Shown: positions 7,725-48,758 of the stretch, piece after piece
Layout of the letters: the number at the start of each line of letters is the position of its first letter
Position numbering within the stretch: position 1 is the first letter of the stretch
Assembly (NCBI GenBank): GCA_024230295.1
Contig: JAAERN010000049.1
Span: 62,001-126,000 of the forward strand
From: Planctomycetota bacterium
Lineage (GTDB): Bacteria > Planctomycetota > Phycisphaerae > Phycisphaerales > SM1A02
DNA: 64,000 bases
Reading direction: 5' to 3'
Position numbers and translations under genes: made by a program
Notes under the pieces: generated by a model
Seen by the model: the letters and a program-made list of their open reading frames with translations, nothing else
Database searches by the model: none
What the model was told of the DNA's origin: nothing

Positions 7725-8108
7725 TCAACGATATCGGAGACGCGTATCGTCGAAGGCCGCCTCCATCATCCGAACGCGGCATCGCCACCTGCCGACCTCA
7801 ACACAGGCGACATCAAAGCGAAGTCGGCGGTTTCGATTCCATTCATGGGGCAATCGCTCAGCAGCCCGCGCAATTCGTCGCTGCTTGGGAATATCAACTC
7901 GTCGAAGTATTGGATCGGCACCGCTGGTTGCCTTGACCTCCACAATCGCGAGAACACCGCCACCTCTCGGAACCGCAACAATGTCCAGTTCATCCCGCCC
8001 AAGTCGAATATTGCATCCCAAGATCCGCCAGCCTCGAAATCTCATCCACCGACGAGCGGCTCGCTCACCGCGGGGTCCGATTGTGTAGCGATTCGGCGAG
8101 AAAATCAC
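7725..8108 (-). CDS. YraN/UPF0102 family endonuclease-like protein
   Basis: GERAARRWMRFRGWRILGCNIRLGRDELDIVAVPRGGGVLAIVEVKA pattern; ATGA overlap with the upstream gene. Confidence 0.85.
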   Translation of the reverse strand: MIFSPNRYTIGPRGERAARRWMRFRGWRILGCNIRLGRDELDIVAVPRGGGVLAIVEVKATSGADPILRRVDIPKQRRIARAAERLPHEWNRNRRLRFDVACVEVGRWRCRVRMMEAAFDDTRLRYR

Positions 8109-16128: not shown

Positions 16129-19100
16129 TCAATCGGCCACGCGTTGCATCATGAGGATGCGGGGACGATCACCAGGGTGATTCACTTCGCTTCGATCAAC
16201 CACCATGACGTAGCGTGCATCTTCAACGATGTTCTTCGGATCGGTCGCATCCCAGATATTGGTTTCGGAATCGCGTTTGAATGTCCGCACACGCAAATGC
16301 ACCGTAAAGACATCACTTCGTGTCGTCACGATGTTCGAGATGCCGCTGAAAAGCAGCCCCTGTTCCTCGGCATCCGATGCAACACGATCCCCCGTCAGGT
16401 GGACTTCTCTGGACCTCGGGTCCGCTTCAGGGCCTCCATCCCGAACATACTGAAGCGGATCATCCCAAAGACCGTTTCCTGGACCGGCAGCCACATAATT
16501 GGACTCGCGAAGATCGTACACCTGCGTGTCATACAACCGCCCCGTGTCCGTGGACAGGAATGAGCCAGGGTTATCCAGCGGGCCAGACTGGCCAACCATA
16601 CTTCGGGGGTCGAACAGTTGGCTCTGGCCCGAGAAGTTGCCAAACTCGCCATGTACTTGCTTGTCTTGGAACCCGAACGGATTGCGGCTCGCCCAGTCCA
16701 TCCGCCATGCGTCCGCTGCAACGGCGCTGCCAATTGCCTGCCGCATATCCTCGTAGTCATCCTCGATATCGCCATCGGCATTGTGGTCCCAAGCCGCAAA
16801 ATCGTAGTAGGCCGGACGGCTCAACTGGAACAGTTCGCCGATGCCCGCGAATCCTCGTTCACCTCGGCTGAACCGAATGGTCTCATCGGCGTCAACATCT
16901 CCCAGCGATGGGTATTGCGGGTCGATGGAGAGCGCCTCATAAAACTGATCCATTTTCGCGAGCAGGTCGTCATCTGTATCAGGCAGATTGTCACTGCCCC
17001 ACCATGCATTTGGCAGACCGTATCCACGATCAGGATAGGGAGCGCCATCGGGGATGCCTGCCAACAGGTAGCCCGCATCATTTCGCAGCGGATCGAAGAT
17101 TGACGAACTCATCCAACGGGGTATGTGGCCGTTCCCATCTCGAAACTGCACAATGGCATCTGCCACCGCTGATCGCGGATGCGGACTGATAGGCCTGTCC
17201 GTGGTATGCAACATTGCAGTCACCGAGTCATCGAGGATGGGCTGCTTGTTCCACTGACCGTTCCCATTCGATGTTGGATCGGCGTGGACCAATCGATGCA
17301 TATGCGGCATCGAACGCAGCACTTCCGCTGGCGCTGTATTGATATTGATCATTCCGCTGGTCGCGCTGCGGTCGAACCCTCCCGCATTATCAAAGTTCGA
17401 AGTACGAGCATCGAATTGCGGATTGGTGTACTGAGAGACGAAACTCGACCAAGTGTCAATGTCATCAATCCGTCCATCGGCGTACTCAAATTCGGCGTTA
17501 CCCCCCGGCGTTGGTGCCCACTGGCCATTGTCTACGAGGTCGTAAATGCCAGGGCCATCACAGACAAACATATCGAGCAATCGCTGCGATGCCGGAAGGT
17601 CGGGTTCCATGTGAGACAAGTCAGTTGATTTGAGAACCCAGTGCGGCACAGCCTGGGGATCCATTCCACCGAAGCCGCCAGAATCGAAGTCGACATGCCT
17701 CAAGTCATAGGATGCGTCGCCGCCATCAGCAAACCATTGATGGTACGGATCACCCACAATCGCGTTAGGTCCATGCTGCGTGCCGGCCAACAACAGTCGC
17801 CCCGCTCGCACAGTATCGCCACCCTCTGCAAGGCGATCGGCGATCCCCTCTGAGAAAGTCCGCAATGTTGCGATGCGATCATTGAACGGTGTCACTTGAC
17901 CATCTTGCGATGACATCTGCCCGGATGCGGGATGGACCTCGAATCCGCCATCCTCAGGAATGCTCGGTTCGGGCGGCCATACCCACCACTCCGAGGGAAC
18001 TATTCGAGGAACGGGATTCGTCGGACTGAAATTCTGGGTCTTCAATGGAAGATACAACTCATGGGCCACGGTCATGGCGTTGAGTACCTCGCCCACTTGC
18101 TCAAAGTTAGCATTCTTGGGCTGCACTTGAAATCCGTGCGGCATCAATAGTTCGCCGTCGATCTCCGCCGGACCGTACCAGCCCTTGTCGGGATAGGACC
18201 AACTGAAGTTATACGCGCCGTAATTCCCGGCCTGGTCATACCCGGCGTCTCGTTTGCGAATGAGATCGTTCCAGTCGTCCCGATCCATCTGATCAAAGCC
18301 AAAGAAACACGGCTTTGCCGCTTGGAATATTCGGTACTCAGCCTCTGGAGTTCCGTCAGAGGTGTTGTCTAGCGTCCAGGTCCACGGAAGCCGGACATTC
18401 CGAGTCGCCCATGGATATGGGTAAGGGTTCTGCGAGGAATATGGATCCGCCGTCTGCCAGCCATTGCTCCCCGTGTCCCACCATCCGTCATCATCAGCAT
18501 CGATGCGACCGATTCCATCGGGATCCCAAGCTGTGCTGTAAATGTGCCCGTGTCGATAGCGAAGAAGCGTGGAATAGGTATCTGCCATCTCGAAACCACT
18601 CTGGCCGTACTCACCGGTTGAGCCAGCCGTCGTGCGATACCACCCCGCGCCCCAGTCTGAAATGAAGTCGCTTTGATCGAGAAACGGCGGCGGAACCTGT
18701 GGCGCATCGTTGGTCGTATCGCCATCCAGAAGCACGCTACTGTTCGGCAGATTTCGATCCAGTTCAGGATCTCCCTCAAAGAGAACCCGCACATCACGGG
18801 TCTGATTGGTCTGATTGGAGTCCGTCACCAGCCACTGCTTCCAGCTATACACATCATCAACGTCTTCGACCCAGGGCGCATCTATGGAGAAGTGCGAATA
18901 TTGCCCTTTCTGCTCGGCCCGCCGTCGATCCAGTCGGAGCGGAGAAGTCGTCGCTCCAAGCGACAAGGGAACGCTCATTGCGTTGTAGGGCTCCAGCTTT
19001 GGAAGATTGGCGTCGATGAGCAGCGGGTCCTCCGTAGCGACAACGAGATGCTGAATCTGGTTGCTCGGATCATTGGGCGGGGCCGGATCCGTCTGAAAAG

Positions 19101-22100
19101 ACGGACCGACAGCCGGGCTGTTCGAATCCCAACTCGCCATGCGCAAGACATTCCACCACTGCTCTTCATTTGGATCTGTATTCTCGCGCCCCTCCGGGAA
19201 CGTGATGGATGGATTGGCGCTGTTCACATCATCACCATCAACATCCATCGCTGTCGGTGAGTTTGGAAGTTCGCCAAGTTGCGCAGCCCAGTCGCGTGAC
19301 CAGGAACGCGTCACTCTCGAATTCGCAGGGACAAAGCGTGGCGCAGCCCGATCGGGGCGCCATCTTCGAGACGTCACCGGCGAATCAACCCAGTCGAGCA
19401 AATTGGTGGCATACTCAGCGTCAGCAAAGCTCGGCTGGCCCACTTGTTTCTGATCGGCAAAGTCATCGACTGCCCAAGCTCGGCTATACCGTGCCCATTG
19501 CATCCATCTCGCCTGAGACGGCGCAATCCGATACATCGGATCAAGCGTCGAGCGACCCTCGACCTGATCCTTGTTGCCAGCAGCCGGATACAAGGCGCGA
19601 GGATAGAGCCAGCTCTGAGCGGTATCCACGGTCGCCGCGGCCGTTTCCCCCTCCATCGTCAGACTGATTTGCGAGTGGACGGGGAAGTGAGTTGAAATTG
19701 TACTTTGCACTGGTTGAATTGCTTGCGGATAGTCAGCAAACGACGGCTGCCGGTGCTGCGCAAGTTCAATCTGCACGGCATGGGCAAACTCGTCAATTCC
19801 ATCGGTCCCGACCGTACGGTCAATCACAACCTCCGCCGTGTAATCGTTCAATCCGCTTTCGGCATGGGGGTCTTCATTGCCATTTTGATTCCAGTCACGC
19901 GCATGTCGCCGAACCAACTCGATGCCGACACCAATCTTGGCATCGATTGCCAGGTTTGAAAACTGCGTGTCCGACACGCCTTTTCCAACGCCTTGGCCGT
20001 ACCAGAACTTGGCCAGCGAAGGCATCGATCGACCAGACATCTCCACGTTGGAATAGGACGGATCATCCGAAGACACCTCAGTCGGCGACGTCGGATGATG
20101 ATTCGGGCGTATAGACCAGATCAGTTCCCCCGGCGCAATCCAGCGGACCTCATCTCGAAAGTGTGGATCCCTGAAGCCGTAATCGAACTCATCGCCACCA
20201 ATGTTCCCGTCTCCATCGACATCGCTCGATGGGTGCATGCCCTGCTCCGCATCCAGAAAGTCCAACCAGCGTGCCGCTTCAAATGGCTGGTTGTCAAAGT
20301 CGTAGTTGGCGGTGCCTTGATCCCGATCATCGAGTCCATTCATGATGATCGTCAAACTGTATGGACGGTCATTTGTGGCTGGGGGGAGCACGGGCGTGAG
20401 GTCCATGATGTGGTCATTGTCGCGATCCCAGATCACGTCCCCATCAGGAAGGCCTGTATTACTGTCTATGCTCGTCATCGCATCGAAAACGAGTGTGCCG
20501 TTGTAGGGCTGGCCTGCATGCTCGGCACCTGACAGATATGGCCGAGGATCAATCGGAATCGTCCACAATGGTGGTTGACTTGCATCATGCCTGTTCGGAC
20601 GGAAGAAGTTGAGCGAGTAAATCGGTTGCCCAAACTCATCAAGGAGGGGAACGGGTTCGTCGTACGGATTGATCAACTGAACAGCGAATACGACGCGCGG
20701 CGACTGTGGACGGTGTTCCGGTTTCGTGAAGTAGTCTCCTGCCGCATTCTGTGCATTGACGACCGCCCCCCACTCGCCATCATTATTCTCGCCGGGTGGC
20801 GTATACGCTGTCGCCCAAGTCCATAAATCAGCGTTCTCGTATTCGTTATAAGAGTTGTCTTGATTCTGACCGGGCTGAAGCAACGGCTGCCCCGGAATCT
20901 TCCACGGGCGACCGACCACTGCAACGAATGCCTCGGCAATAAATGGCTGCGCCTCAACTCCGAGTTCGTGAATCTCTGGGCTGTACTGCCCGGTCCAAGC
21001 ATCGTGTTCGGCGAAGAGGCGGTCCTCTTGATAGGCGACAGGGTTTTGTGGATCAGCGGGATCGACCCACTCAAGGTCAGCTTTATAGACATCCCAAGGC
21101 GCCACTGGAGGCGCGGCGGTTCCGGATCCCGATACCGCAGCGTCCAACACATCGCGAAGGCTGGCGTCACTGAGATCAACGAAGTCGTCGATCAAGTTGC
21201 CTCCGATCGCCTGCAGGTTCGCATCGAAAGGAAGGCCGTCCAAGTCATCGGGCAGAAGATCAACTCCACCCAACAGTTCGGGACGCGATCCATTCTGAAA
21301 GGTATCGCTCCACGGATTCTGATCCCAGTTGCCCAGTCGATCGGGAACATAAGCCTGCTCGAAAATCGGCAGTGCAACGGCGCCCCGATCACCGATCCAC
21401 ATGTACTCTGGATCGCTCTGGGGGGGCACGAGAGGATCGTTGCCTTCCATTGAGTACAGGGGCGACTCGCTGTCTGGATCTCGCATAGCCATCATGTTGG
21501 CGGCCATAGCCGCAGCCATCCGGCGAGTCTTCTCCCACGCAGCATCGCCCTTACCGAAATACGAATCACGGCTTCCGAGTTGCAGCGTGCCCTCTGGGGA
21601 TCCGCCGCTGTTTTGCGGCTGCGTATCGCGATCGACAACATCGCCGCTCGTGAGGCCGAGCATGAGATTGTGTGCCAATAGATCACTGAAGGCATAGGGC
21701 TGATATTCGGGTGGTGGTTGCGAATTCGGATCCGGATCCGGATTCGAGGGTGGCGATGGTCGCTCGTATTCGCGGAGGTCGAGTTTCAATCTTGATTGTT
21801 CGAGAAACCGCTCATGAAGATTACGGACGATGACGTCGTTGAGGTCTCCCTCAATGTTGCCCTGTTTATGATTAAGTACAAACTGCCACGCCCGCGGCTC
21901 TGGTGCCCGCTGCGACCACCAGAGATACGGCGGCCGAGTTTCGTTCCGTGCAGCAGAAAAGAAGGTCATTCGATGCCGCAGATCCGATGCCAGTTGACGA
22001 TTGTCGAGCGGTTCACTGTGCTCTGGCCAGTCCAGTTTGCCGCGAAGGATGTGCGGAGTGCTGTTGCCCTGCGATCCACCAATCGCACGCTCCAACCGAG

Positions 22101-24264
22101 AGTAGACATATCCGCTGTTACTTCCTTCGTGCGCGCGGAGCTCGAACTCGTCGGCTAGACCAAATGGCGTGAAAATATTCTGCGGATGCTGCGACTCCTG
22201 CCCACTCTCCTTGAAGTAAAACAGCCTGTTGTCGCGGTCTGCGATGTCGTAGAGGCCGCCGCCACCATCGGGAAAGAACGGGTTCGCCAAACTGCCCGAG
22301 TCGATGTTCATCGCTTCAAGCCACGCTCGGTTGCTCTGACCCCGCCAGTAGTTCGCATTCCACGCAACAGGAGTTTCCGAGTAGCCGTGGCCACTCATGA
22401 TTCCAGGACCGGGGAATGTAAGCATCGGTCGGTCAAGGCTTGGATGCGGCTCCTGCAGCAGATCCCAAGTGCCTCCACCGTAGAAAGGCGCTTCAAGAAG
22501 CCACGGTTGGTGCGACTCAATGTCGAAGAACCCGGTATTCCAAACCGGAATCCCGTCGCCTCCTGCGGTCACTGGAATTCGGGCGCTGTCCTGGCCATAA
22601 CCAGCAGAGTTCTGACTCACAAGCGCGGTCGAAGCTGGCGTCCAGCCACGAGTGCTCTCCTTGCTGGATCCATCATCCTGCCGCTCAAACCGTGTTGCGA
22701 CATTCGCGTTGATGCGGCCGCTGTTATCGGTGATCGAGACTCCCACGATCTGCCGCGTGTCGTCCACACCAACATGGGGCGAGAGCCACCAGAAGGAGTC
22801 GGTAAACCCGTCTCCATCGGTATCGGTCAGGATGCGATTGACATGCCAACGGGCGGTACCGGGGATGAACTCGTCTGCCTCTGATTCGCCAAAGCGAGGA
22901 TCGCCGGGCAGGGGTTGAGTAGTCGGATCACCTGAGTATTCAGGATGGCTCGGATCGGTTTCCGGATCGTAGTACTCACTGACCCCATCGCCGTCGAGAT
23001 CATTCAGATCATAGAAGTTGGAAGGCAACATCGTGCCGTCGCCATTCCTCGCCGCCAGAAGTGCCTGCTTGTATCCCTCGGGGCGAAGCCAGTTGAGCCA
23101 GCGGTCCCAAAAGTCGAGGTGCCCGGTGTACTGGGTCATGTCAGTAGGCGCTGCGGACAGTGACACTGATTCCGTTTCAGGCAAGAACGTCGTGGTAGCA
23201 GTGTCACCCCAGTGGAATCCGTCGCCTGAGAGTGTCGTCCAGTTGTCGGCAACCCGAGTTTGCTCACCGGCCGGGCCGAGCCAACCGCTTGGGACCATCG
23301 CAGGCCACTGTTCAATCGGAACATCGGTCCGCTGAACAACGCCACCGTAATACCTTCGTCCGTCGGCCCACGCTGCATCCGTGTAAACATTGTGTCGGAT
23401 GCCATCCTCAGAGATGGCGCTCCGCTCCCCCGTCACATCCGCGATGTCCGGGCACATACGCCAACCGTTGCCAGCGCGGCCGAGATAAGTCAAATGCCGC
23501 CAGTGGCTGAAGGCATCGGCGTTGCGGTCCATGAACGGATTTGCCAGAGACGGAAGGACTGCGGTCGGGTTTGCTATTCCCCGCGACGGCACACGCTGTG
23601 GTTCGATATCGCGCAGCCACCGGGTATCAGAAGTACCGGGGCCACCCAGTGGATTCTCGCGTGGCTGCAGCACTTGGTTGGTCAGATTGACAGCAGGCCA
23701 CAATTCAGGCGCCTCGGGCCAGTCAAAAAGGGCGACATCCTCATCGGCCCGAAGATCCGCCCACAGCCACTGCTGTGGATCCCAGCGGCCATCCGGATTG
23801 TCTGGGTTGTCATAGACAATTTCGTGTAGGGGGCCCGGTCGGAGCGGCCATGTCAGCCAGTCCGGTGGATTGGTCCAAGGCGACACTTCCCACGGCGCAC
23901 GGTTCCACGCAAAATCCGGATCGACGCCATAGCGAATTGCCTTCGGATCGAGCGACTCGCGGCGGCTTTCATCGGGCGGCAGCGCGGCAGCGAACTCGGC
24001 GGGCGTGTAGTCGATCTCTCGAACAAACAAGGCATCGGCCACTTCCTGAGCGATTTCCAGAGCAGCGGTTTCGGTTCGATCTCGGCTGAAGGCGCGTTGC
24101 CGATGAACCCGTCCCATATCCCGAAGCGACTGAGTCCTCGAGAGGAACACGGTCGCAATGATGACCAGTAGCACCAGCATTCCGGCAACCAGAATGAGCG
24201 TATTGCCCCGCCGCCCGCTCGACTGCCGTCGGCGGTACACAGAGGTATCGACCCGAGAAATCAT
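16129..24264 (-). CDS. Giant (2711 aa) GspK/PilX-like pseudopilin-type protein
   Basis: Uninterrupted ORF; N-term RRGNTLILVAGMLVLLVIIATVFLSRTQS; GspK-like SGMININTAPAEVLRSMPHM near C-terminus; many DxDxDG-type loops; last in a pseudopilin gene series. Confidence 0.8.
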   Translation of the reverse strand: MISRVDTSVYRRRQSSGRRGNTLILVAGMLVLLVIIATVFLSRTQSLRDMGRVHRQRAFSRDRTETAALEIAQEVADALFVREIDYTPAEFAAALPPDESRRESLDPKAIRYGVDPDFAWNRAPWEVSPWTNPPDWLTWPLRPGPLHEIVYDNPDNPDGRWDPQQWLWADLRADEDVALFDWPEAPELWPAVNLTNQVLQPRENPLGGPGTSDTRWLRDIEPQRVPSRGIANPTAVLPSLANPFMDRNADAFSHWRHLTYLGRAGNGWRMCPDIADVTGERSAISEDGIRHNVYTDAAWADGRRYYGGVVQRTDVPIEQWPAMVPSGWLGPAGEQTRVADNWTTLSGDGFHWGDTATTTFLPETESVSLSAAPTDMTQYTGHLDFWDRWLNWLRPEGYKQALLAARNGDGTMLPSNFYDLNDLDGDGVSEYYDPETDPSHPEYSGDPTTQPLPGDPRFGESEADEFIPGTARWHVNRILTDTDGDGFTDSFWWLSPHVGVDDTRQIVGVSITDNSGRINANVATRFERQDDGSSKESTRGWTPASTALVSQNSAGYGQDSARIPVTAGGDGIPVWNTGFFDIESHQPWLLEAPFYGGGTWDLLQEPHPSLDRPMLTFPGPGIMSGHGYSETPVAWNANYWRGQSNRAWLEAMNIDSGSLANPFFPDGGGGLYDIADRDNRLFYFKESGQESQHPQNIFTPFGLADEFELRAHEGSNSGYVYSRLERAIGGSQGNSTPHILRGKLDWPEHSEPLDNRQLASDLRHRMTFFSAARNETRPPYLWWSQRAPEPRAWQFVLNHKQGNIEGDLNDVIVRNLHERFLEQSRLKLDLREYERPSPPSNPDPDPNSQPPPEYQPYAFSDLLAHNLMLGLTSGDVVDRDTQPQNSGGSPEGTLQLGSRDSYFGKGDAAWEKTRRMAAAMAANMMAMRDPDSESPLYSMEGNDPLVPPQSDPEYMWIGDRGAVALPIFEQAYVPDRLGNWDQNPWSDTFQNGSRPELLGGVDLLPDDLDGLPFDANLQAIGGNLIDDFVDLSDASLRDVLDAAVSGSGTAAPPVAPWDVYKADLEWVDPADPQNPVAYQEDRLFAEHDAWTGQYSPEIHELGVEAQPFIAEAFVAVVGRPWKIPGQPLLQPGQNQDNSYNEYENADLWTWATAYTPPGENNDGEWGAVVNAQNAAGDYFTKPEHRPQSPRVVFAVQLINPYDEPVPLLDEFGQPIYSLNFFRPNRHDASQPPLWTIPIDPRPYLSGAEHAGQPYNGTLVFDAMTSIDSNTGLPDGDVIWDRDNDHIMDLTPVLPPATNDRPYSLTIIMNGLDDRDQGTANYDFDNQPFEAARWLDFLDAEQGMHPSSDVDGDGNIGGDEFDYGFRDPHFRDEVRWIAPGELIWSIRPNHHPTSPTEVSSDDPSYSNVEMSGRSMPSLAKFWYGQGVGKGVSDTQFSNLAIDAKIGVGIELVRRHARDWNQNGNEDPHAESGLNDYTAEVVIDRTVGTDGIDEFAHAVQIELAQHRQPSFADYPQAIQPVQSTISTHFPVHSQISLTMEGETAAATVDTAQSWLYPRALYPAAGNKDQVEGRSTLDPMYRIAPSQARWMQWARYSRAWAVDDFADQKQVGQPSFADAEYATNLLDWVDSPVTSRRWRPDRAAPRFVPANSRVTRSWSRDWAAQLGELPNSPTAMDVDGDDVNSANPSITFPEGRENTDPNEEQWWNVLRMASWDSNSPAVGPSFQTDPAPPNDPSNQIQHLVVATEDPLLIDANLPKLEPYNAMSVPLSLGATTSPLRLDRRRAEQKGQYSHFSIDAPWVEDVDDVYSWKQWLVTDSNQTNQTRDVRVLFEGDPELDRNLPNSSVLLDGDTTNDAPQVPPPFLDQSDFISDWGAGWYRTTAGSTGEYGQSGFEMADTYSTLLRYRHGHIYSTAWDPDGIGRIDADDDGWWDTGSNGWQTADPYSSQNPYPYPWATRNVRLPWTWTLDNTSDGTPEAEYRIFQAAKPCFFGFDQMDRDDWNDLIRKRDAGYDQAGNYGAYNFSWSYPDKGWYGPAEIDGELLMPHGFQVQPKNANFEQVGEVLNAMTVAHELYLPLKTQNFSPTNPVPRIVPSEWWVWPPEPSIPEDGGFEVHPASGQMSSQDGQVTPFNDRIATLRTFSEGIADRLAEGGDTVRAGRLLLAGTQHGPNAIVGDPYHQWFADGGDASYDLRHVDFDSGGFGGMDPQAVPHWVLKSTDLSHMEPDLPASQRLLDMFVCDGPGIYDLVDNGQWAPTPGGNAEFEYADGRIDDIDTWSSFVSQYTNPQFDARTSNFDNAGGFDRSATSGMININTAPAEVLRSMPHMHRLVHADPTSNGNGQWNKQPILDDSVTAMLHTTDRPISPHPRSAVADAIVQFRDGNGHIPRWMSSSIFDPLRNDAGYLLAGIPDGAPYPDRGYGLPNAWWGSDNLPDTDDDLLAKMDQFYEALSIDPQYPSLGDVDADETIRFSRGERGFAGIGELFQLSRPAYYDFAAWDHNADGDIEDDYEDMRQAIGSAVAADAWRMDWASRNPFGFQDKQVHGEFGNFSGQSQLFDPRSMVGQSGPLDNPGSFLSTDTGRLYDTQVYDLRESNYVAAGPGNGLWDDPLQYVRDGGPEADPRSREVHLTGDRVASDAEEQGLLFSGISNIVTTRSDVFTVHLRVRTFKRDSETNIWDATDPKNIVEDARYVMVVDRSEVNHPGDRPRILMMQRVAD

Positions 24265-26285
24265 TGCAAACGCTCCTTGGGAAGTTCCACTACGAACTGA
24301 ACGAGTTTGCCATGCTCAAGGTTCGTTTCGGTATCGTGCAGAACCATCGTGAACCGCAGGGCCGAGGGCCAAGGGGTGTATGAGGGGTCGGGGTCCAACA
24401 AACCATCGTTACCGAACTCTTGGGTATCGGGATTTGCATTACCGGCCAGAACATCTCGGTTTTTCAGGAGCGGCCATCGTCGATTCGGGCCGAAGATCGC
24501 CCAGTATTCGCGGACTGGTTCCTGCCCGGGAAAGGCCGCTGGAACAACAACCTCATCAACCGCTAACGGGTTGAGAAGCGAAGGAGCCGCCATCGACGGC
24601 TTGGCGTTCTCGGGGTACACCTCCTCGGGAGTCTTCTGAGGTGCCAGGTTGGCAGGATATGAGGCGGCATAATCACGAAAGCTGGTCACACCCCGGTCCC
24701 ACTTGTCGGCAGCATCCGCCGGGATTCTCTTGTCAGGCATGCCGAACCAGAATTGCTGCCCAGATTGTCTCACATCGGTACCAGCCAATTGCCCACCCAA
24801 AGGGTCAAAATTGCTGTCCGCAGAGTCGTACCTAAATCCATGCCAGGTCACCCGGTCTCGACGGCTGATGGAACGGTCAGGCTCAACCCATTGCCAAGCC
24901 CGCGTCTCTCCGACGTTGTCATCCCACGTCCACTCGACAATAAAGTCGCTACAGGCCGATCCACAAATCTGATTGGTGAGTGACTGGTCATAGCGAGATG
25001 GTCCGGGGGCCGAACGCTCTACCCGCGGCCATGCCAAGAGTGTCTTGAGGAGATGCCGCTGTGTGGCCAGACCGGGCACGGCGGTGTCCTCCAGAATTGC
25101 GTGCGTGCCATCGGCGACGTCATCGTGCACTCCATCGTCGTTCGCATCGAACCATGGACGTCGACCAAAGACCGCATCGGGCTGGGTTTTGTGCCGACTA
25201 TGGAGAAGTGATTTACGGACATCGCCAAGCAACATCGACGTCATGTCAACTCTGCCCATGTCGATAACTGCGGCATCACGTTCGAACCCAGTTGCTTGCG
25301 GCGTAGTACGACGAGGGTCGGCCGGAAAGAGCGACTTCGTTGAATATGTCGATGCGTTGTAGATCTTCTTGGATTTGTCAGCCGGGTTTTGGGAGTCGTC
25401 GTCACCCATCACAGCGAGCCGCCGCGCAAGCAGCCAACGCCTTGCCTCGGGCTGATCACCGCGAACCAACCTTGCAGTATCGACAGCAGGGGCTTCCTGC
25501 TTGTACAAGTCATTGGTGTTGCCACCGGCAAAGCCATACTGGCTGTAGACCGCTTCGAGTTCGCCACCCCAGCCTCCGCTGGCGAAATCGCCGTTGACAT
25601 TCGATCGATAGAAGGGCGCCAGACGAGCGAGATTCGCTTCGAGTCCTGACGAGTCGGCGAATTGTCCTTCAACCGTTCGGAAGGCATCGAAGTCAATATC
25701 GTGCCCCTTATATTGCGGAGGCAGTTCGCCAAGTAGTGACTCCGTGGGGTCGGGCGTCGCACCTGTGGTGTAGTCGTACACGGAGTAGGGCGAGAGCAAT
25801 GGGAACTGCAGTCCGTGACCATAGGTAACTGCAGATGTTGATCCCATCGAGCGAGACACACCACCGAGCAAACTGTTGCCAGAGAGCCTTGCGCCAAGAG
25901 GAACAGACCGCTCGAACCCACCAATAAAGAACATCAACTGATCGCACCGTACCGGCGCATCGGCTGGCAGCGAGGGATTGATGAGCGGAGGCCGCGGCCC
26001 GGGCTTGGTGTTGTCCCAGTGCACGCGGTTGTAGTCATTCGGAACCTCGACCGAGTGGATAATGAGGCTTCCGTCCGGACTCACTCTGCTCAGGTCATCT
26101 CGAATCTGTTTCTCAATCGCCCACGACTCCTGCAGCACGCTGCCAGAGGCTTCGCCCATCCGGGCAACACCAGATGCCGCCTGAAATGCCTGTCCGCAGA
26201 CCAGCACGACAACAACCAGCACCGCAACCGACACAAGAATCTCGATGAGTGTAAAGGCCCGAGATGTCCGACAAGTAGATCGCAT
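24261..26285 (-). CDS. Prepilin-type protein (GspJ-like position), enlarged
   Basis: MRSTCRTSRAFTLIEILVSVAVLVVVVLVCGQAF class III prepilin leader and E5; overlaps neighbouring genes. Confidence 0.88.
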   Translation of the reverse strand: MRSTCRTSRAFTLIEILVSVAVLVVVVLVCGQAFQAASGVARMGEASGSVLQESWAIEKQIRDDLSRVSPDGSLIIHSVEVPNDYNRVHWDNTKPGPRPPLINPSLPADAPVRCDQLMFFIGGFERSVPLGARLSGNSLLGGVSRSMGSTSAVTYGHGLQFPLLSPYSVYDYTTGATPDPTESLLGELPPQYKGHDIDFDAFRTVEGQFADSSGLEANLARLAPFYRSNVNGDFASGGWGGELEAVYSQYGFAGGNTNDLYKQEAPAVDTARLVRGDQPEARRWLLARRLAVMGDDDSQNPADKSKKIYNASTYSTKSLFPADPRRTTPQATGFERDAAVIDMGRVDMTSMLLGDVRKSLLHSRHKTQPDAVFGRRPWFDANDDGVHDDVADGTHAILEDTAVPGLATQRHLLKTLLAWPRVERSAPGPSRYDQSLTNQICGSACSDFIVEWTWDDNVGETRAWQWVEPDRSISRRDRVTWHGFRYDSADSNFDPLGGQLAGTDVRQSGQQFWFGMPDKRIPADAADKWDRGVTSFRDYAASYPANLAPQKTPEEVYPENAKPSMAAPSLLNPLAVDEVVVPAAFPGQEPVREYWAIFGPNRRWPLLKNRDVLAGNANPDTQEFGNDGLLDPDPSYTPWPSALRFTMVLHDTETNLEHGKLVQFVVELPKERLQ

Positions 26286-27673
26286 CACAGATTCGCCACC
26301 GTTGCATACACAGGTATGAGCCGATACGTCAGCCCCTCTTCGGTCGTCACACGGGGTGGCACATACCACAGCCGATCGACGACTGGCGCGGCGCTGCTAG
26401 GCGATACGAGCCCTTTGGGGTAGTCGTTCGGTCGTGACATTCCAGACATCGCCGCCGCAGGCAAGATCGTGCTTGAGGTAAACATCTGGGGATCCACCTT
26501 GTCGCCGTCTGCGTCGAGATCAAGGCGATCGAGTCCACACGATACGAGCGGCGAAGGAACCGGGGCCGTCAGCGACACAGGAGTTTCGCCACCCCCTGCC
26601 CGCACGCGCCCGGTAGCAACACGGTGCACCGTTCCATACTGATCAATCAGCCACTGAGAAGGCCACTGCCATCCGTAGGCTGGGTTATCTGGATCAAAGG
26701 GATCATCCGAATCCGCGCCCGGAAGTGGCTCGACGTTATTTTCCCCTGAATACGCAGGCCCCTTCATGTCCACTGTCCATGGTCCAAATGCCACCGCAGG
26801 ATCATTGAGATCCTGCATCCATGGAACTGGAGATACCAACTGGGATGAATCATCATCCAGCCGCACTGGCTGAGGATGCCACGGAGGAGCGCTCATGCTC
26901 TCCCGTTGCACGCGGTACACAAAAACGGCAACCTGGATGGTGCCACCAACGCTGCGAAAGGCGCAGTCCCAGTAATACTTCGGCGTCCGTCCCGCCTGAT
27001 CCTGCAGCGGCCATTGGCGTTCGCTCGCCAGAATGAAGACCTTTGGGACGGACAGATATGGCATCGTCGGATCGCCGTTGAGTTCGATACCGTTGGCATC
27101 CTCGCGAATGATCTCACGAGAGTGGCTCGGGATACCCAACGTACGGCTCCCTCCGTCATAGGGATTGAACGAGAGAAACCTCTGCCAAGGATTCAGTACC
27201 GGCAACGTGTGCTCGCCGATTGTTTCGCCAGTCCCAGTCCACTGAAGTGAGTTGAAAATATCCAGCGAACCACGCTCAACAGTCTCACTGTCCGCCGAAA
27301 CAACCATTGCGGGTCGAAGCCAGGGCCATGTGTCCCGCGCCAGCCATGCAGCAGGATGGACCGTTCGCTGGCTGTAGAGTTTGTTCATGGCATCCAGTTT
27401 GGCCTGCTCGCCACCCTGCCACTCGTCCTGAGCGTCGATGTAATCCCACCAAGAACCGAAGTCTTCGCTGGAGATTCTGCTGCGAATGAGTTCGATCGCA
27501 TGCGAGGCAACCAGTGGGCCGTTGAGTTCATCCTCAGCCCGCTGCTGAAGCATCACGCCGGCCGGAAAGAGCGCGGCAATGCTGATGAGGCCGATCCCCA
27601 GGATGAAAATCGCCATCAAGAGTTCGATCAGTGAAAAACCCCGAGGCGGATTGGATCGGTGTACGCAATTCAT
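26285..27673 (-). CDS. Prepilin-type protein (GspI-like position), enlarged
   Basis: NPPRGFSLIELLMAIFILGIGLISIAALFPAG. Confidence 0.88.
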   Translation of the reverse strand: MNCVHRSNPPRGFSLIELLMAIFILGIGLISIAALFPAGVMLQQRAEDELNGPLVASHAIELIRSRISSEDFGSWWDYIDAQDEWQGGEQAKLDAMNKLYSQRTVHPAAWLARDTWPWLRPAMVVSADSETVERGSLDIFNSLQWTGTGETIGEHTLPVLNPWQRFLSFNPYDGGSRTLGIPSHSREIIREDANGIELNGDPTMPYLSVPKVFILASERQWPLQDQAGRTPKYYWDCAFRSVGGTIQVAVFVYRVQRESMSAPPWHPQPVRLDDDSSQLVSPVPWMQDLNDPAVAFGPWTVDMKGPAYSGENNVEPLPGADSDDPFDPDNPAYGWQWPSQWLIDQYGTVHRVATGRVRAGGGETPVSLTAPVPSPLVSCGLDRLDLDADGDKVDPQMFTSSTILPAAAMSGMSRPNDYPKGLVSPSSAAPVVDRLWYVPPRVTTEEGLTYRLIPVYATVANL

Positions 27674-28779
27674 CGATTGGTCGCCTCCAACGGAACGCCG
27701 CTGAACTTGTTGAAGTGCAGTTGCCGAGCATTGGCATCAATGAATCCCCGCAGTGCGTCGGAACGCGTACTGACCGCCTTACGACGAAGCACATCGGTTG
27801 GAGAGTTCAGCCACTCCATGGGATCGAGTTGCTTGCGGGCATCACGCTCGTCATAAATCGCCAACCAAGATCCGGTGACAACCAACGGTTCATCATCGAG
27901 CCGCTGTTGACAAACTGGCAGCCGCTCGGCTTCGTTGTCCTCCCACATGTCCTTCGCTGGAATATGAACGCCATCGGTCAGCCGATATCTGGCGCCGACG
28001 TAGCAGCCTGCCGAGGGGGGGGACCATGGAACCGCTGCCTGTCCGTCCTCGACGGGCGGGCAGGGATCGGGGCCGCCGAACCCGGGAGGATCCTGACGAT
28101 TGCAATAGTCGAGCCCTTCGTACCGCTGAAGTCCATCGGCATTGAAATCGACCCACAGCCAATCGGCATCTGCCGTGTGAACAAAGTTGGCGACCGATCC
28201 ATCACCCGAAAACAAGATGCCAATCATCTGCCCAGGCACTTCCGGAAGTTTCGTTGAGAACTGGCTTGGTGTGAGATATTGAATGTCCCCGTCGTAGGCC
28301 ATGGGGTCTGTCGTCGGCGAGTTGCTGTAGTCACTCAGATTGGAAAGCCTGTGGCCGGGCACGGCGACGCCGATTCCTTCGGCAAGTTGCATGGGCTTGC
28401 CCGAGTCGACCGGAACGAAACGCGATGTTCGCGGTTTACTGCTAACACCAGGATCACTCAGGTCAGGGTTAGGCACCCATGGGAGCGTTTCGCCTGAGTA
28501 CTGGGCAACAACACCCTCCAATTGCTGTACCCCCGACGATGTGAGAACCGGGCGGAACACCAAGGCCGTCGGCCGGGCATCTTCGATTGCCCGCTGCCTG
28601 GCCACAGAGAGCATGTTCTTTACTTCCTCGACCGCGCCTGCTCTACGCACATCGGATGCGATCGCCTGGTACGAAGCCACGGTTGCAAGACCGAGCACGC
28701 CGATAATTGCAACGACCGCCAACAGCTCAATGAGCGTAAAGGCGGTTCGGATCACCTGGCTGTACCCGCATCTCACCAT
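27670..28779 (-). CDS. Prepilin-type protein (GspH-like)
   Basis: VIRTAFTLIELLAVVAIIGVLGLATVASYQAIASDVRRAGAVEEVKNMLSVARQRAIEDARPTAL (GspH-like). Confidence 0.88.
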   Translation of the reverse strand: MVRCGYSQVIRTAFTLIELLAVVAIIGVLGLATVASYQAIASDVRRAGAVEEVKNMLSVARQRAIEDARPTALVFRPVLTSSGVQQLEGVVAQYSGETLPWVPNPDLSDPGVSSKPRTSRFVPVDSGKPMQLAEGIGVAVPGHRLSNLSDYSNSPTTDPMAYDGDIQYLTPSQFSTKLPEVPGQMIGILFSGDGSVANFVHTADADWLWVDFNADGLQRYEGLDYCNRQDPPGFGGPDPCPPVEDGQAAVPWSPPSAGCYVGARYRLTDGVHIPAKDMWEDNEAERLPVCQQRLDDEPLVVTGSWLAIYDERDARKQLDPMEWLNSPTDVLRRKAVSTRSDALRGFIDANARQLHFNKFSGVPLEATNR

Positions 28780-29639
28780 TGACGCACTCCGTACGAGTAG
28801 AGGTTGTCTTCGGTTCTTCGGAAGCGAACATCCTCCTGGGGCGGCGTAAAGTCAGTTCCCAATGGATGGACAAAGCCAACCCAGCCATACCGCTGATCAG
28901 CCCCACTGCTCATGAAGTAGGTACGGTCACTTGAGGCCGGACCGAATGCTCGCTCTTCAAATGTTCGGATTGTCCCGTCTTCATCCCGCAAGGATGTGTT
29001 TGGGCCCGCCAGTTCCTCATCGTTGACGCCAATCCCATCCATCGCCCCCGTGTACCAATCACGCCCGGCAAAAACGACCACCACAGGTCGCCCCCATGAA
29101 TCGACGAGCAACTTGTCGGTCGGAGATGACCCCGCACCGACTTCCTCCCAGAAGTCGCTTGGAAGCTTCGCCAAAATGGCCCGGCAAGACTCAACTGACT
29201 GCAATCGCTTCACGACTTCGACCATCAATTTCCGACCGGCCCGATTCGACGCGGCAGTTTCCCAATTCGCGTAGTCGTCAGAATCAATGGAGTAGTCCTC
29301 TAGAAATCCAATGCCGTCGAGTTGATCCTGCGCATACACACCCCGAACGGGAATGTCATAGCTGCTCTGACCATTAAGCGGCTCGTCGTCGTATGGCTGG
29401 GCTAGGTCCCCATCTCCCTGCCCATAGGTCAGTGCATGCCCCGTGTGTTGCTGGTACTCGACCATAGCCGCATCAAGAAGGCTCAGCATGTCCTGGGTCT
29501 TGCGGCGATCGGCCGAATCAAGAACGGCCGAACCGATCGAGAGTGTGATGGCCGCAAGAATGCTGATGATCACAATCGCGATCATCAACTCGATCATGGT
29601 GAAGCCGTGATACCTCGATACCGCTCGCTTTCCACTCAT
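28773..29639 (-). CDS. Prepilin-type protein (GspG-like)
   Basis: YHGFTMIELMIAIVIISILAAITL; LLVDSWGRPVVVVF; FMSSGADQRYG. Confidence 0.88.
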   Translation of the reverse strand: MSGKRAVSRYHGFTMIELMIAIVIISILAAITLSIGSAVLDSADRRKTQDMLSLLDAAMVEYQQHTGHALTYGQGDGDLAQPYDDEPLNGQSSYDIPVRGVYAQDQLDGIGFLEDYSIDSDDYANWETAASNRAGRKLMVEVVKRLQSVESCRAILAKLPSDFWEEVGAGSSPTDKLLVDSWGRPVVVVFAGRDWYTGAMDGIGVNDEELAGPNTSLRDEDGTIRTFEERAFGPASSDRTYFMSSGADQRYGWVGFVHPLGTDFTPPQEDVRFRRTEDNLYSYGVRQW

Positions 29640-30886
29640 TGGCCGATCTCCACAATGTTGTCCCGGTTGGCTTCCTCGGTAGCGACGACACCCGTGTCAA
29701 AGGCCGGCCTGCCAAGCCACTGAAGATTCAATCCGTCTTCGTACCACCCGTTCGCGGCATTATCGAAGGCCGCATGATCACCGCGACCATCAGACAATCC
29801 AGCAATGGGTTCACCTGGAAAGTCAACTCGCGCCCAATCGTAAATGCGTCGATTGGCGCCAGCTGACATAAATGCGAATCGACCGGTCAGCAGGGCACGG
29901 GGAATCGAAGGATCGCCGTGTGGATCACCACCATCTCCGACCAGCCCGTAGTCACCCCACCGCTCCCCATTTTCATTCGTGAACCACCAAGTGGTTTCCT
30001 CGCCGTCGCCAAACTCCCACGGCCGCAGTGCGAAGTACTCGGCCATCGTCGGGGCATATGTCCACTCCGGGGATGGCTGGTAGTCCGAGGGATAACGCCG
30101 CCCCGGCTCACCGGGCGGATGATTGATGCGGTAGTAGCGAATAGGCGTGCCCCAGGCATCGACGATCACCTTCGGAGCACAGGACTTGTAATCAGAATCA
30201 CCCGGAAAAACGACCAGCGGCTGGTTTGTCGCAGGGTCGATCGAACCATCCCACGCACCAAAGTCCCAGTGGTCTGCAGCAGTGTCATCTTCCACGCTGC
30301 AGTCGCCATCCCAACCGATCGCGCCGACCATTGCTGGGTCGTCGAGTTCTAGGTATGGGCCGAGCACGGTGCCTAACTGACCCAAACGCGCAGGTCGCCG
30401 CTCACACAATTCTGGGCGGCCCTCGTCGGTCCCGACGTTATCTGACCAGCCCGCATTCCAGAAGCCGTCGTCACCGGGGCGATGAATGCCCAGAGAGGCT
30501 GCCGTCGCTTCCGTGGGGTCATCGACGTCGTATCCATACCCGTCATGCTCCTCGTCGCCGTACCCGAGCAAATACTCTGCTGGCGAGGTATAGGAGTACC
30601 GACGCTGCATGGCAGTTAGGTACACGGGATAATCACCGTCCATCTTTCGCGTTGGCTCCACGCCGTCAACTCCAGCGCGATCGTTGTCGAGGAGTGGCGG
30701 CAGATAACCGGCTTCCGATTCAAACCGCACAACTGCCTGAGAAAGTGCCCTGAGTCGAGACTTGGTCGTAGCGACCATCGCAGCCTCTCGAGCGCCGCCT
30801 GCGGCGACAACCAACAGGCCGATCAATACGACGACGATGCCCATCGTGACCAGAATCTCAACCATCGTGAAGGCACGGCGAGGCAT
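29636..30886 (-). CDS. Prepilin-type protein (second GspG-like)
   Basis: MPRRAFTMVEILVTMGIVVVLIGLLVVAAGGARE; VIVDAWGTPIRYYRIN; FMSAGANRRIY. Confidence 0.88.
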   Translation of the reverse strand: MPRRAFTMVEILVTMGIVVVLIGLLVVAAGGAREAAMVATTKSRLRALSQAVVRFESEAGYLPPLLDNDRAGVDGVEPTRKMDGDYPVYLTAMQRRYSYTSPAEYLLGYGDEEHDGYGYDVDDPTEATAASLGIHRPGDDGFWNAGWSDNVGTDEGRPELCERRPARLGQLGTVLGPYLELDDPAMVGAIGWDGDCSVEDDTAADHWDFGAWDGSIDPATNQPLVVFPGDSDYKSCAPKVIVDAWGTPIRYYRINHPPGEPGRRYPSDYQPSPEWTYAPTMAEYFALRPWEFGDGEETTWWFTNENGERWGDYGLVGDGGDPHGDPSIPRALLTGRFAFMSAGANRRIYDWARVDFPGEPIAGLSDGRGDHAAFDNAANGWYEDGLNLQWLGRPAFDTGVVATEEANRDNIVEIGQ

Positions 30887-30888: not shown

Positions 30889-32220
30889 CTACTGGTTCTC
30901 CGAAACCGACTGAATCATCTTGACCAGCGGCATAAAGAGCGCGAGCACAATACCACCGACAATGGTGCCGAGGACCACGACAAGCATTGGTTCGACCAAG
31001 CTCAAAAGTGACTGCACTGCGACATCCACTTCTTCGTCGTAGTTATCTGCGACCTTCATAAGCATGACGTCGAGATCGCCCGTCTCTTCACCCACATCGA
31101 TCATGTTCACGACAATGCCATCGCACACTTTCGATTCTCGAAGCGGCGCCGCAAACGACTCACCCTCACGGATCGAGTCATGCACACGCTGAAGGGCTCG
31201 CTCAAAAACCCAGTTGCCACAAGTGTCGCGAGTGATATTGACGGCTTCAAGAATCGGTACGCCGGCCGAAACAAGCGTGCCGAGCGTTCGCGTAAACCTT
31301 GCAACCGTGGTCTTTTCAACCAGCACACCAACAACGGGAATCTTGAGAACGACCCAATCAATCGCCGCACGCCCGAATCCAGTCTTCTTGAATACCTTGA
31401 GGCCAGAGAACAACACGAATGGCGACGCAACGATAACGGACCACCCAGGCACTAACTGGCCGGGCTGCTTGCCCGCAACCCACGAACTGGCTTGGATCAA
31501 GAACTTGGTCAGCCCAGGCAACTCGATTTCGAAATCTGCAAAGATCTCTTCAAATTTCGGAATCACAAAATACATGATGCCTGTCACGATCGCGATCGCA
31601 ATGATCACGACGACCGTCGGATAGATCATCGCACCCTTGATTCGAGCGCGAAGCCTCGCCGCCTTTTCCATAAAGTTGGCGAGACGCTGAAGGATGACAT
31701 CCAGAACACCACCGATTTCGCCGGCCGCGACCATCTTGCAGTAGAGTCGATCAAACCCCTTGGGGTGCTTGGCGAACGCATCAGAGAGCGTTGAGCCGGC
31801 CTCGACATCCGCCACGACTTGCGTGAGAATCACCTTGAGCTTGCCTGGCTTCTGCTGCTGTTCAAGAATCTGCAGCGAGCGTAGCAGCGGCAAACCTGCG
31901 TCCTGCAGGGTGGAGAGCTGTCGAGTGAACTGAGTCAGCACCTTGATCTTGACTGGACCGAAACTCGGCAGCCTGATTTGAATGCCCTTCTTTTCCTTCT
32001 TACTTTTCGCTTCTGGCTTTTCCTTCTTCTTCTTCCGCTTGCCACCAGCCTTAACTCGGGCTTTCTTGCGACCGCCCTCGCCATCGCTCTGCGTCACAGA
32101 CGTCGGAAAGAAACCCTGCCCGCGAATCTGCTGAATTGCATCTTCGCTGCTGCCAGCCTCCACAGATCCGCTCGTCGGTTTTCCAGCGGAATCCAATGCT
32201 TCGTATTGATAGGTCGCCAT
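30889..32220 (-). CDS. Type II secretion / type IV pilus inner-membrane platform protein (GspF/PilC)
   Basis: FTRQLSTLQDAGLPLLRSLQIL; FTRTLGTLVSAGVPILEAVNITRDTCGN; duplicated GspF domains. Confidence 0.95.
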   Translation of the reverse strand: MATYQYEALDSAGKPTSGSVEAGSSEDAIQQIRGQGFFPTSVTQSDGEGGRKKARVKAGGKRKKKKEKPEAKSKKEKKGIQIRLPSFGPVKIKVLTQFTRQLSTLQDAGLPLLRSLQILEQQQKPGKLKVILTQVVADVEAGSTLSDAFAKHPKGFDRLYCKMVAAGEIGGVLDVILQRLANFMEKAARLRARIKGAMIYPTVVVIIAIAIVTGIMYFVIPKFEEIFADFEIELPGLTKFLIQASSWVAGKQPGQLVPGWSVIVASPFVLFSGLKVFKKTGFGRAAIDWVVLKIPVVGVLVEKTTVARFTRTLGTLVSAGVPILEAVNITRDTCGNWVFERALQRVHDSIREGESFAAPLRESKVCDGIVVNMIDVGEETGDLDVMLMKVADNYDEEVDVAVQSLLSLVEPMLVVVLGTIVGGIVLALFMPLVKMIQSVSENQ

Positions 32221-32248: not shown

Positions 32249-34204
32249 CTACTCCTCGCTAATGGTCTCACGAAGGACTTCGTCGATGGTGGTGCGGCCG
32301 TCATAGATAGAAAGAAGGCCTGACTCTCGTAGCGTTCGCATTCCGCGTTTGCGACACTCAGTACGGAGCAGTGCTGTCGACGCTTGCCTCATGATGAGTT
32401 CGCGGATCGCATCATCCATCGTCATAATCTCGAAGAGCGCAAGCCGCCCCTTGTATCCACTGCCGTTGCAGCTATCACATCCGCTTCCACGGAAGAAGGA
32501 CTGGCCAACAACATCTTCTGGGCGAAGTTCGAGCTCCATGAGCTCGGCCTCGCTTGGCGTGTACTGCTGCTTGCACTTCAAACAAATCCTGCGAACCAGC
32601 CGCTGGGCCACGATGGCTTCAATCGTTGCCGTAATCAAGAAGGCCTCAACGCCAAGATCGACCATACGAAGTACGGTCGACGGCGCATCGTTGGTGTGCA
32701 ACGTCGAGAACACAAGGTGGCCCGTCAGCGCAGCCTGAATTGCGATTTGCGCAGTCTCAAGGTCACGAATCTCACCAATGAGAATCGTGTCGGGATCCTG
32801 ACGCAAAAACGAACGAAGTAGCCTGGCGAACGTGAGGTCCTGATCAGTATTGACCTGACACTGCACCAGGCCGTCGATGTCGTACTCGACGGGATCCTCA
32901 GCCGTCAAAATCTTGGTCTCGGGGGTATTAAGCGCACTGAGCGCGGCATACAACGTTGTCGTTTTGCCAGAACCAGTAGGCCCCGTTATCAGCACCACGC
33001 CATTGGGCCGTCGAATGAGTTCGTTCATTGTTCCGAGTTCATCATCCCGAAGCCCGATTCGGTCGATGGCCAACTCGACATTGCTCCGGTCCAATACACG
33101 CATAACGACCGACTCGCCATACATCGTGGGGAGGACCGAGATACGCAGATCAATGGGGTTCTGGTTAACGGTCAACTCAATACGCCCGTCCTGAGGTAGA
33201 CGCCGCTCCGCAATATCCAGATTCGCCATGACCTTGATTCGGGAAACAATCGGCAGTGCCAAATGCGGCGGTGGCGGAACCATCTCATAGAGCACGCCGT
33301 CAATGCGATACCTCATCTTGAACTCGTCTTCAAACGGTTCGAAGTGGATATCACTCGCCTTGTCTCGGATCGCCTGCAACAGAACCAGATTGAGCAACTT
33401 GACGACCTTGTTGTCTTCGGAGGCTGCCGCGAGTTGATCGAGGTCGATTGACTCTCCACGCCCCTCGAGTGCCGCCAAAGTATCGGACTCTTCGAGAGCC
33501 GCCATGACGTCGAGCATCGAGGAACCTGATTGCGATGCGGACGCGTAGAGCCGCTCGATAGCCGCATCGACGGCCGCCGGAGGCGCAACAACCGCATTGA
33601 CTTTGAAGCCCATCAGCAATCGAAGGTCATCAACCGCGCGATAATTGTCCGCGGACTTCATCGCAATCGTGATCGCCTTTCGATTTGCATCGAAGGCAAC
33701 CGGCACGATTTGATAAGTGCGTGCCGTTTCGCCGGGCAAGTGTTCCGTCAGGGCCTCGTCGATCGAATCTGGATCCAGCTCGACGAATTCGAGCCCGATC
33801 TGGCCAGCCAGAACTTGCAGAATGTCCTGCTCGGTGATCTTGTCGAGTTCCAGAAGTATCTCGCCGACCTTGGTCCGCTCCCCCTTCTGAACGCGGCGCT
33901 TCTGAATTGCCAGGGCTTCATGTACTTCGTCTCTGGTCAGTTTCCCCAACTTGACCAAGATCCGCCCGAATCGCCGCCCCTTCAGTTCCGTGGCAGCACT
34001 GCCGTCACTGCGACGGCGGCGGCCTGATCGTGAACTTCGGCTGCTGGAGCTACTCCTGCGGCTCGAACTGCTCCGGGTCGTTTCCGCCTGGGCTGAATCC
34101 GACTTGGATGCGGCGTTGCTACTGCTTGATTGTTCTTTGTTGGACAAGGGCCAGTTCCCTATACACCCGAGCAAGGGCCCCTCGCCACGCTCAACGCTCT
34201 CCAC
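32249..34204 (-). CDS. GspE/PilB-family assembly ATPase 1
   Basis: GPTGSGKTTTLYAAL, AEDPVEYDIDGLVQCQVN, tetra-Cys CLKC...CDSC; N-terminal Ser/Arg-rich tract. Start uncertain. Confidence 0.94.
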   Translation of the reverse strand: MESVERGEGPLLGCIGNWPLSNKEQSSSSNAASKSDSAQAETTRSSSSRRSSSSSRSSRSGRRRRSDGSAATELKGRRFGRILVKLGKLTRDEVHEALAIQKRRVQKGERTKVGEILLELDKITEQDILQVLAGQIGLEFVELDPDSIDEALTEHLPGETARTYQIVPVAFDANRKAITIAMKSADNYRAVDDLRLLMGFKVNAVVAPPAAVDAAIERLYASASQSGSSMLDVMAALEESDTLAALEGRGESIDLDQLAAASEDNKVVKLLNLVLLQAIRDKASDIHFEPFEDEFKMRYRIDGVLYEMVPPPPHLALPIVSRIKVMANLDIAERRLPQDGRIELTVNQNPIDLRISVLPTMYGESVVMRVLDRSNVELAIDRIGLRDDELGTMNELIRRPNGVVLITGPTGSGKTTTLYAALSALNTPETKILTAEDPVEYDIDGLVQCQVNTDQDLTFARLLRSFLRQDPDTILIGEIRDLETAQIAIQAALTGHLVFSTLHTNDAPSTVLRMVDLGVEAFLITATIEAIVAQRLVRRICLKCKQQYTPSEAELMELELRPEDVVGQSFFRGSGCDSCNGSGYKGRLALFEIMTMDDAIRELIMRQASTALLRTECRKRGMRTLRESGLLSIYDGRTTIDEVLRETISEE

Positions 34205-34328: not shown

Positions 34329-35447
34329 TCAGGCGCTAGCCTGGTCAGCCTGGTCGAGTTCTGTCCGACCAACCGACTTTCCGACCCGATGAATCCGATT
34401 CGTGAGCTCTGAGGCATCCCGGGCCTTGTCGATCATCTCTTCTGCGTCAATCACGCCACGCTCGAAGAGGCCCCAAAGGTGGTCATCCAGCAACTGCATG
34501 CCGAATTTCTTGCCTGTCTGGATCGCCGAGTCGATTCGGAAGGTCTTGTTCTCACGAATCAGGTTGGCAATGGCAGGCGTCACAACGAGGAACTCGTAGG
34601 ACGCCACCCGTCCGGGCTTGTCAGATCGGGACAGCAACTGCTGGGAGAGCACCGCAAGCAGCGTCACCGACAACTGCACCCGGATCTGCTCCTGCTGATT
34701 CGTAGGAAAGGCGTCAATAATTCGGTTGATCGTGCCCGACGCCCCCGTCGTATGAAGTGTCGCAAACACCAAGTGCCCTGTTTCGGCCGCAGCGATGGCT
34801 GCTTCGATCGTATCCAAATCACGCATTTCACCGACGAGAATGACATCGGGGTCCTGCCTCAATGCCCGGCGAAGCGCCTCGGAGAAGGACGGGACATCCA
34901 CCCCGACTTCGCGTTGATTCACCACCGACTTCTTGTGGTAGTGGTAGTACTCGATCGGATCTTCGACCGTCACAATGTGTCGGTCGTAACTCATGTTGAT
35001 GTGGTCGATCATCGTGGCGAGGCTGGTCGTCTTGCCCGACCCGGTCGGCCCAGTCACGATGAACAGGCCTCGCGGGCGCCGAATCAATTCTCGAACAATC
35101 TCAGGGAGACCGATCTGATCAAACGTCAGCAGTTCATTGGGAATGAGCCGCAGCACAATGCTGATATTGCCTCGCTGGCGAAACACCGCGACACGGAACC
35201 GAGCCCGGTCGCCATAGGCAAAGCCGAAGTCGGTGCTTCCATGCTCCTGAAGTTCCTGCTGACAACGCTCGGGCGTGATCGACTTCATCAGCGCCACGGC
35301 GTCTTCGTTGTCCAAGACCTTGGTGTCGAGGCTCCTCAAACGACCACTCAGGCGAAGCGTGGGCTTCCGCCCAACCGAGATGTGAAGGTCCGATGCATCT
35401 TGGCGGATCACCGTATCGAGAAGTCGATCAATTTGAATACTTGACAT
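34329..35447 (-). CDS. pilT: PilT-type retraction ATPase
   Basis: LLDTVIRQDASDLHISVGRKPTLRLSG; GPTGSGKTTSLATMIDHIN; EDPIEYYHYHKKSVVNQREVG; TPAIANLIRE. Confidence 0.94.
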   Translation of the reverse strand: MSSIQIDRLLDTVIRQDASDLHISVGRKPTLRLSGRLRSLDTKVLDNEDAVALMKSITPERCQQELQEHGSTDFGFAYGDRARFRVAVFRQRGNISIVLRLIPNELLTFDQIGLPEIVRELIRRPRGLFIVTGPTGSGKTTSLATMIDHINMSYDRHIVTVEDPIEYYHYHKKSVVNQREVGVDVPSFSEALRRALRQDPDVILVGEMRDLDTIEAAIAAAETGHLVFATLHTTGASGTINRIIDAFPTNQQEQIRVQLSVTLLAVLSQQLLSRSDKPGRVASYEFLVVTPAIANLIRENKTFRIDSAIQTGKKFGMQLLDDHLWGLFERGVIDAEEMIDKARDASELTNRIHRVGKSVGRTELDQADQASA

Positions 35448-35485
35448 TGAATCTGCGCTCGCCGCAAACGGCGAGATCACGCCTC

Positions 35486-48745: not shown

Positions 48746-48758
48746 TTCGATACAGCTC

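Follow-up and report, generated by a model that had tools for sequence, protein, structure and literature searches.

A giant GspK-type minor pilin encoded last in a PilT-containing pilin operon of a Phycisphaerales bacterium

The 64,000-nucleotide stretch of planctomycete DNA analyzed here (the window) encodes on its (−) strand, at 16129..24264, a giant GspK-type minor pilin, hereafter K, of 2711 aa (about 301 kDa, pI 4.4). Our favored interpretation, which we hold to be probable, is that K, at about eight times the ordinary size, occupies the terminal (GspK/PilX) position among the minor pilins of a type IV pilus-like machine capable of retraction, with a cap that would grip a ligand while PilT pulls. 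A preliminary description of this DNA had already pointed to the 2711-aa open frame and to its about eightfold excess over an ordinary GspK, and both held on closer analysis.

The K gene is real and intact, and it is under strong purifying selection. Its frame starts with ATG, contains zero internal stops, overlaps by 4 bp the stop of the upstream GspJ/PilW-like pilin gene, and is single-copy in its genome (2.7 Mb, 97.6% complete). In a genome of the same genus (Phycisphaerales bacterium isolate Arabian9_MAG_11; L031), a stop-free K frame of 2,592 aa with about 77% identity to the window K ends at the contig edge, and a second genome carries a frame of 2,680 aa. Comparison of the window K with that of L031 returned an overall dN/dS of 0.066; in the middle of the protein, synonymous sites were saturated and the non-synonymous distance was 0.15–0.30. 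No K counterpart was found in viral contigs. The preliminary description had asked whether the frame might be a fusion or an assembly artifact, a reading for which length alone speaks. Because K was found as one open frame with both ends present in about 29 independent loci, and in view of the low dN/dS, we dismiss a fusion, an artifact, or a decaying gene (pseudogene) as exceedingly improbable. The stretch between the two ends is indeed rich in Trp, Asp, and Pro (3.5%, 10.1%, and 8.5%), as had been described, and it is poor in Lys (1.1%), with 3 Cys, but the earlier length of ~2000 residues has to be corrected to about 2,240.

The features conserved along K support its description as a GspK interrupted by a large insertion, with ordinary GspK parts at both ends, an arrangement suggested earlier and now backed by profile–profile comparison and by the gene order G-pilin-H-I-J-K. 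The N-terminus (residues 1–45; 24130..24264, (−)) comprises a leader ending in RRG, after which a prepilin peptidase cut is expected, followed by the hydrophobic helix NTLILVAGMLVLLVIIATVFL, which was recognized at this place from the outset and does not have the FTLIE-type Glu at +5; this Glu5 is missing from every family member with a readable position 5. A core block, DTDGDGFTDSFW...VSITDNSGRINAN (residues 481–521; 22702..22824, (−)), joins a Ca-loop-like segment to the first GspK-type 'K(I)NxN' motif, and its landmarks D483 and N521 are separated by exactly 38 aa in the majority of members; the hhalign match of this motif to that of ordinary GspK was weak. The motif itself, VSITDNSGRINAN (residues 509–521), and the PilT-containing operon upstream were both absent from the preliminary description. 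Further along are the conserved block FG..DE.ELR...SRLER...D.R..LTT.SGaRN (residues 694–771; 21952..22185, (−)) and NFEQVGEVLN... (18055..18108, (−)), which according to profile alignment is the counterpart of the 'n.PL.siEL' motif in the first alpha-domain of GspK. The GspK-type motif SGMININTAPAEVLRSMPHM (residues 2303–2322; 17299..17358, (−)), from which the T2SSK/helix-hairpin-helix region begins, was found where first reported, as was the motif SGMININTAPAEVL. Profile alignments also placed the second 'F.siGEL' motif of GspK at GFAGIGELFQLSR (16816..16854, (−)), and the C-terminal strands TTRSDVFTV...RYVMVVDRS..PRIL (residues 2624–2711; 16132..16395, (−)) form the most conserved part of the family.

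Taken by itself, the window K falls below the cut-off of all GspK models of Pfam and NCBIfam: Pfam returned solely a 14-residue T2SSK match (PF03934, 16.1 bits), and NCBIfam returned no match. The kinship became visible in profile comparisons that set 31 giants against 16 planctomycete GspKs of ordinary size, among them the 444-aa protein of the same genome (L034). There, hhalign gave a probability of 97.9% (E 6e-13) for the C-terminal part (residues 2270–2711) and of 82% (E 1e-5) for the helix, and nothing across residues 960–2270; the best of 40 column shuffles reached 21 vs. the real 98.8. Both groups are bridged by members of 830–1,300 aa that belong to other orders within the class; these align with ordinary GspK at 99.1% (E 1e-18) and with the giants over the full length at 100% (E 4.5e-85), and some of them directly match T2SS_GspK, ComEA helix-hairpin-helix, or HHH_3 models. 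Pfam PF21687, the first alpha-domain of GspK, had zero matches among the giants; the 'n.PL.tiEL ... LTV' end of this domain aligns in the class-level members. The resulting series of colinear motifs reads helix; DN..(L/I)NvN; [insertion]; n.pF..GEl..v; LTV; GrINxNTAP.VL; AIvaYRd; F.siGEL; TVRSDVFtv; VDRS. K combines the leader and helix without Glu5, the T2SSK region, and the last place in the G-H-I-J-K order, as seen in GspK. A PDB search with the K C-terminal profile produced weak helix-hairpin-helix matches only, and AlphaFold models of the insertion and the C-terminus, built from two-sequence alignments, had pLDDT of 27 and 29, with the C-terminal strands as the sole part reaching 50–70.

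These alignments place the insertion, relative to GspK, after the first strand motif and ahead of the point where the first alpha-domain ends. A start after 'LTT.SGaRN' had been considered and was abandoned, as the GspK 'n.PL.tiEL' motif aligns at residues about 2050. Within the insertion, residues about 1101–1345 (GVEAQPFIAEAF ... AVQLINPYDEPVPL; 20230..20964, (−)) form a lamin-tail-domain-like region with the motif G.E.QPFI.E.F ... AVQIANPY..PI.L..Y.L. In five orthologs, PF00932 matched at one shared place, the position of which was checked (E 1.1e-6, 3.4e-4, 7.9e-4, 2.6e-3, and 0.12), all of them below the curated cut-off of 34.3 bits, with 29.4 bits for the best ortholog (L197, E 1.1e-6). 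Since the window K itself had no PF00932 match, and a PDB search with the profile of this region found nothing beyond one spurious RNA ligase match, we regard the lamin tail domain as a good lead, short of a proven domain. K also carries eight DxDxDG-type motifs, a number that 0 of 2000 shuffles reached, which suggests that they are Ca2+ loops; almost no variation is seen in the motif at residue 481.

The giant is no isolated oddity but the most extreme member of a family spread throughout the class, detected there in 174 of 198 sampled genomes. Frame lengths, counted stop-to-stop for K, I, and J alike, range from roughly 840 to 2,700 aa for K in the class. Within the family to which the window belongs, they span 1,181–2,728 aa, and beyond the order most of them fall at 840–1,600 aa. 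Among 61 relatives, 53 matched K as a whole, and five of the other eight were clear with the C-terminal profile. Between members of 1,020 and 2,691 aa, the length difference was spread over most inter-landmark segments, which lengthen together, amid two near-constant blocks, D483–N521 and R2649–end (about 62 aa). A single grafted module is thus excluded as the source of the size, and from the joint lengthening of most segments we conclude that, as aligned, the largest K proteins are loop-inflated forms of one body without an added new module. Across genomes, the K frame length also followed those of I and J, with Spearman coefficients of 0.91 (K-I) and 0.79 (K-J), both raw and uncorrected for shared ancestry, a co-lengthening that would be expected if the three make one tip complex. 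Separately, three other planctomycete frames of large size that carry T2SSK motifs (L099, L101, and L102; 1,787–2,082 aa) were excluded from the family for their different architecture, in which INxNTA stands about 350 residues from the helix; their C-terminal extension of about 1,300–1,400 residues represents a second route to a giant GspK-like protein.

The genomic context of K is an operon on the (−) strand whose order, PilB-PilT-PilB2-PilC-G-pilin-H-I-J-K, is kept across the order with K last, while H/I-J-K is kept across the class. It begins with a 582-aa PilB-type extension ATPase with a c-di-GMP-binding N-domain (35486..37234), which exceeds the NF053729 cut-off and matches TIGR02538 at E 4e-171, under the equivalog cut-off. 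Next to it are the 383-aa PilT retraction ATPase (34329..35480; TIGR01420, 451.5 bits, cut-off 319.1), a 651-aa PilB/GspE-type ATPase with an MshEN domain recognized from model matches (32249..34204), and the 443-aa PilC/GspF platform protein (30889..32220; PF00482, E 5e-65). The pilins follow: a 416-aa GspG-like pilin (29636..30886), a 288-aa pilin with a GspG-like N-terminus (28773..29639; N_methyl, E 9e-9), a 369-aa GspH-like minor pilin (27670..28779), a 462-aa GspI/PilV-like minor pilin (26285..27673; TIGR02523, E 1.3e-6, below cut-off), and the 702-aa GspJ/PilW-like minor pilin (24261..26369); the GspG-, GspH-, and GspJ-like assignments draw on models and conserved gene order. Every pilin of the operon in 24261–30886 is enlarged (288–702 aa). 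PilT was present in many of the order-level stretches long enough to include its position. Elsewhere in the window, three consecutive ORFs of 311, 319, and 376 aa without a Pfam match at 0.001 (48579–51610) separate a PBP/FtsW pair from the window's right part.

K had initially been assigned to the pseudopilins of a type II secretion system (T2SS), and the GspK kinship underlying that assignment was sustained. K as an enlarged T2SS-like pseudopilus tip for large substrates, recruiting and releasing secreted enzymes through a secretin, would also agree with the PilB/GspE relatives scoring almost equally on GspE models and with the three secretins of the genome. It would, however, give this genome two secretion pseudopili, as a complete-looking T2SS-like cluster lies on contig C92 (L034:2306–15387 of G000), with GspE-/GspF-like proteins, pilins, GspL/M-like ORFs, a 967-aa secretin, and an ordinary GspK of 444 aa (7761–9095) in which both T2SSK Pfam domains exceed the cut-off. 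Furthermore, a T2SS would be recognized by GspC/L/M and a secretin with the pilin cluster and by no PilT, and the K operon contains PilT and no secretin. We therefore consider the T2SS reading rather unlikely and T2SS membership, as first proposed, not upheld; given PilT in the operon and the separate T2SS with an ordinary GspK, K more likely serves a type IV pilus that retracts, as its minor pilin at the tip. The genome, which has one prepilin peptidase, holds a type IVa-like pilus gene set of PilB, PilT, PilC, prepilin peptidase, PilMNO-like ORFs (identified by eye), and secretin. On contig C84 (L173:6960–11887), a 659-aa secretin adjoins the PilM/N/O-like ORFs, and together they are likely the envelope part of the window's pilus, to which we link them by inference. 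The third secretin-domain ORF (L174:3–1394) reaches a contig edge, and beside it on the other strand is a 1,978-aa ORF with a signal-peptide-like start (L174:2655–8591).

A DNA-uptake pilus for natural transformation, with K as a large DNA-capturing tip subunit, would equally accommodate PilT and the pilin cluster, and it has a precedent in ComZ of Thermus, a proposed DNA-capturing tip with a beta-solenoid inserted in the pilin sheet (PMC8179133). The helix-hairpin-helix part of K resembles ComEA, but this element already belongs to ordinary GspK, and the very acidic K (pI 4.4) would make a poor DNA ligand, so that we rate this function as improbable.

For the favored type IV pilus tip, the proposed mechanism builds on published GspK biology, because GspK is without Glu5 like PilX and has been proposed as the ultimate tip (PMC7541494), and because the alpha-domain of GspK already interrupts the pilin sheet as an insertion (PMC8179133). 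Prepilin peptidase would cleave K after RRG, and K, without Glu5, could be placed solely at the tip, atop I and J. The insertion would then most likely reach out beyond the filament and form a large, acidic cap that Ca2+ may stabilize via the DxDxDG loops and that would bind a surface, polymer, or other ligand, with PilT driving retraction. The earlier suggestion that K projects as an adhesin or receptor fits GspK/PilX biology; an adhesin or sensor is the best reading of the enlarged I-J-K tip cap, and gripping or sensing surfaces is probably what the enlarged K serves for.

The usual tip adhesin of such pili is PilY1, whose job K may take here. PilY1 (PF05567) was not found in this genome nor in 59 of 61 relatives. 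The two matches came from G018 (L184; a fragment, over cut-off) and G031 (L185; below cut-off), which are two of the three relatives without a convincing giant K. With G018 only 74% complete, this coincidence is no more than a hint. More tentatively, and with somewhat less than even confidence, we propose that a pilus found throughout the class has a jointly inflated I-J-K tip complex, which replaced PilY1 as adhesin or sensor. In this view K, by accreting loops, reached 300 kDa and may be the largest of all known pilins.

Compared with known systems, K resembles the T2SS GspK (PF21687 + PF03934; NF037980) in the helix without Glu5, the two NxN motifs, INxNTA with helix-hairpin-helix, F.siGEL, the RSDVF strand, the DRS end, and the place after J. 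It differs in the length of its family (about 830–2,711 vs. about 320–500 aa), the LTD-like insertion, the PilT operon, and sub-cut-off scores. This graded series of putative tip pilins (830–2,711 aa) offers a natural series for the load that a pilus tip carries through its secretin, and it bears on the joint growth of tip complexes and on PilY1 replacement. The nearest named long relative is the Verru_Chthon cassette protein A (TIGR02600), like K a long partner of prepilin-type proteins. Of 20 giants, 9 matched TIGR02600, the best of them at E 5.7e-6, through the K C-terminal strands where the position was seen (model positions about 1200–1253), and no match in 195 planctomycete genomes, giants included, exceeded the curated cut-off of 332 bits. 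The likeness was seen at the ends only, and giants reach twice the length of protein A, which probably works like giant K despite these sub-threshold scores. Our literature search found no paper on Verru_Chthon cassettes or giant GspK. The modular type IV pilins (Streptococcus sanguinis PilB/PilC, CofB/TcpB, ComZ) share with K an extra functional module and an expected tip position, but their modules are mostly appended (PMC8179133). The largest modular pilin in that survey has 860 aa, and, because the survey required a GFxxxE-type motif, which GspK lacks, it was blind to GspK-type proteins (PMC8179133). Finally, PilY1 with PilX/PilW/PilV/FimU parallels the proposed K tip in that minor pilins equivalent to I-J-K carry a large part exposed at the tip of a retractable pilus, whereas PilY1 itself is a separate, non-pilin beta-propeller protein.
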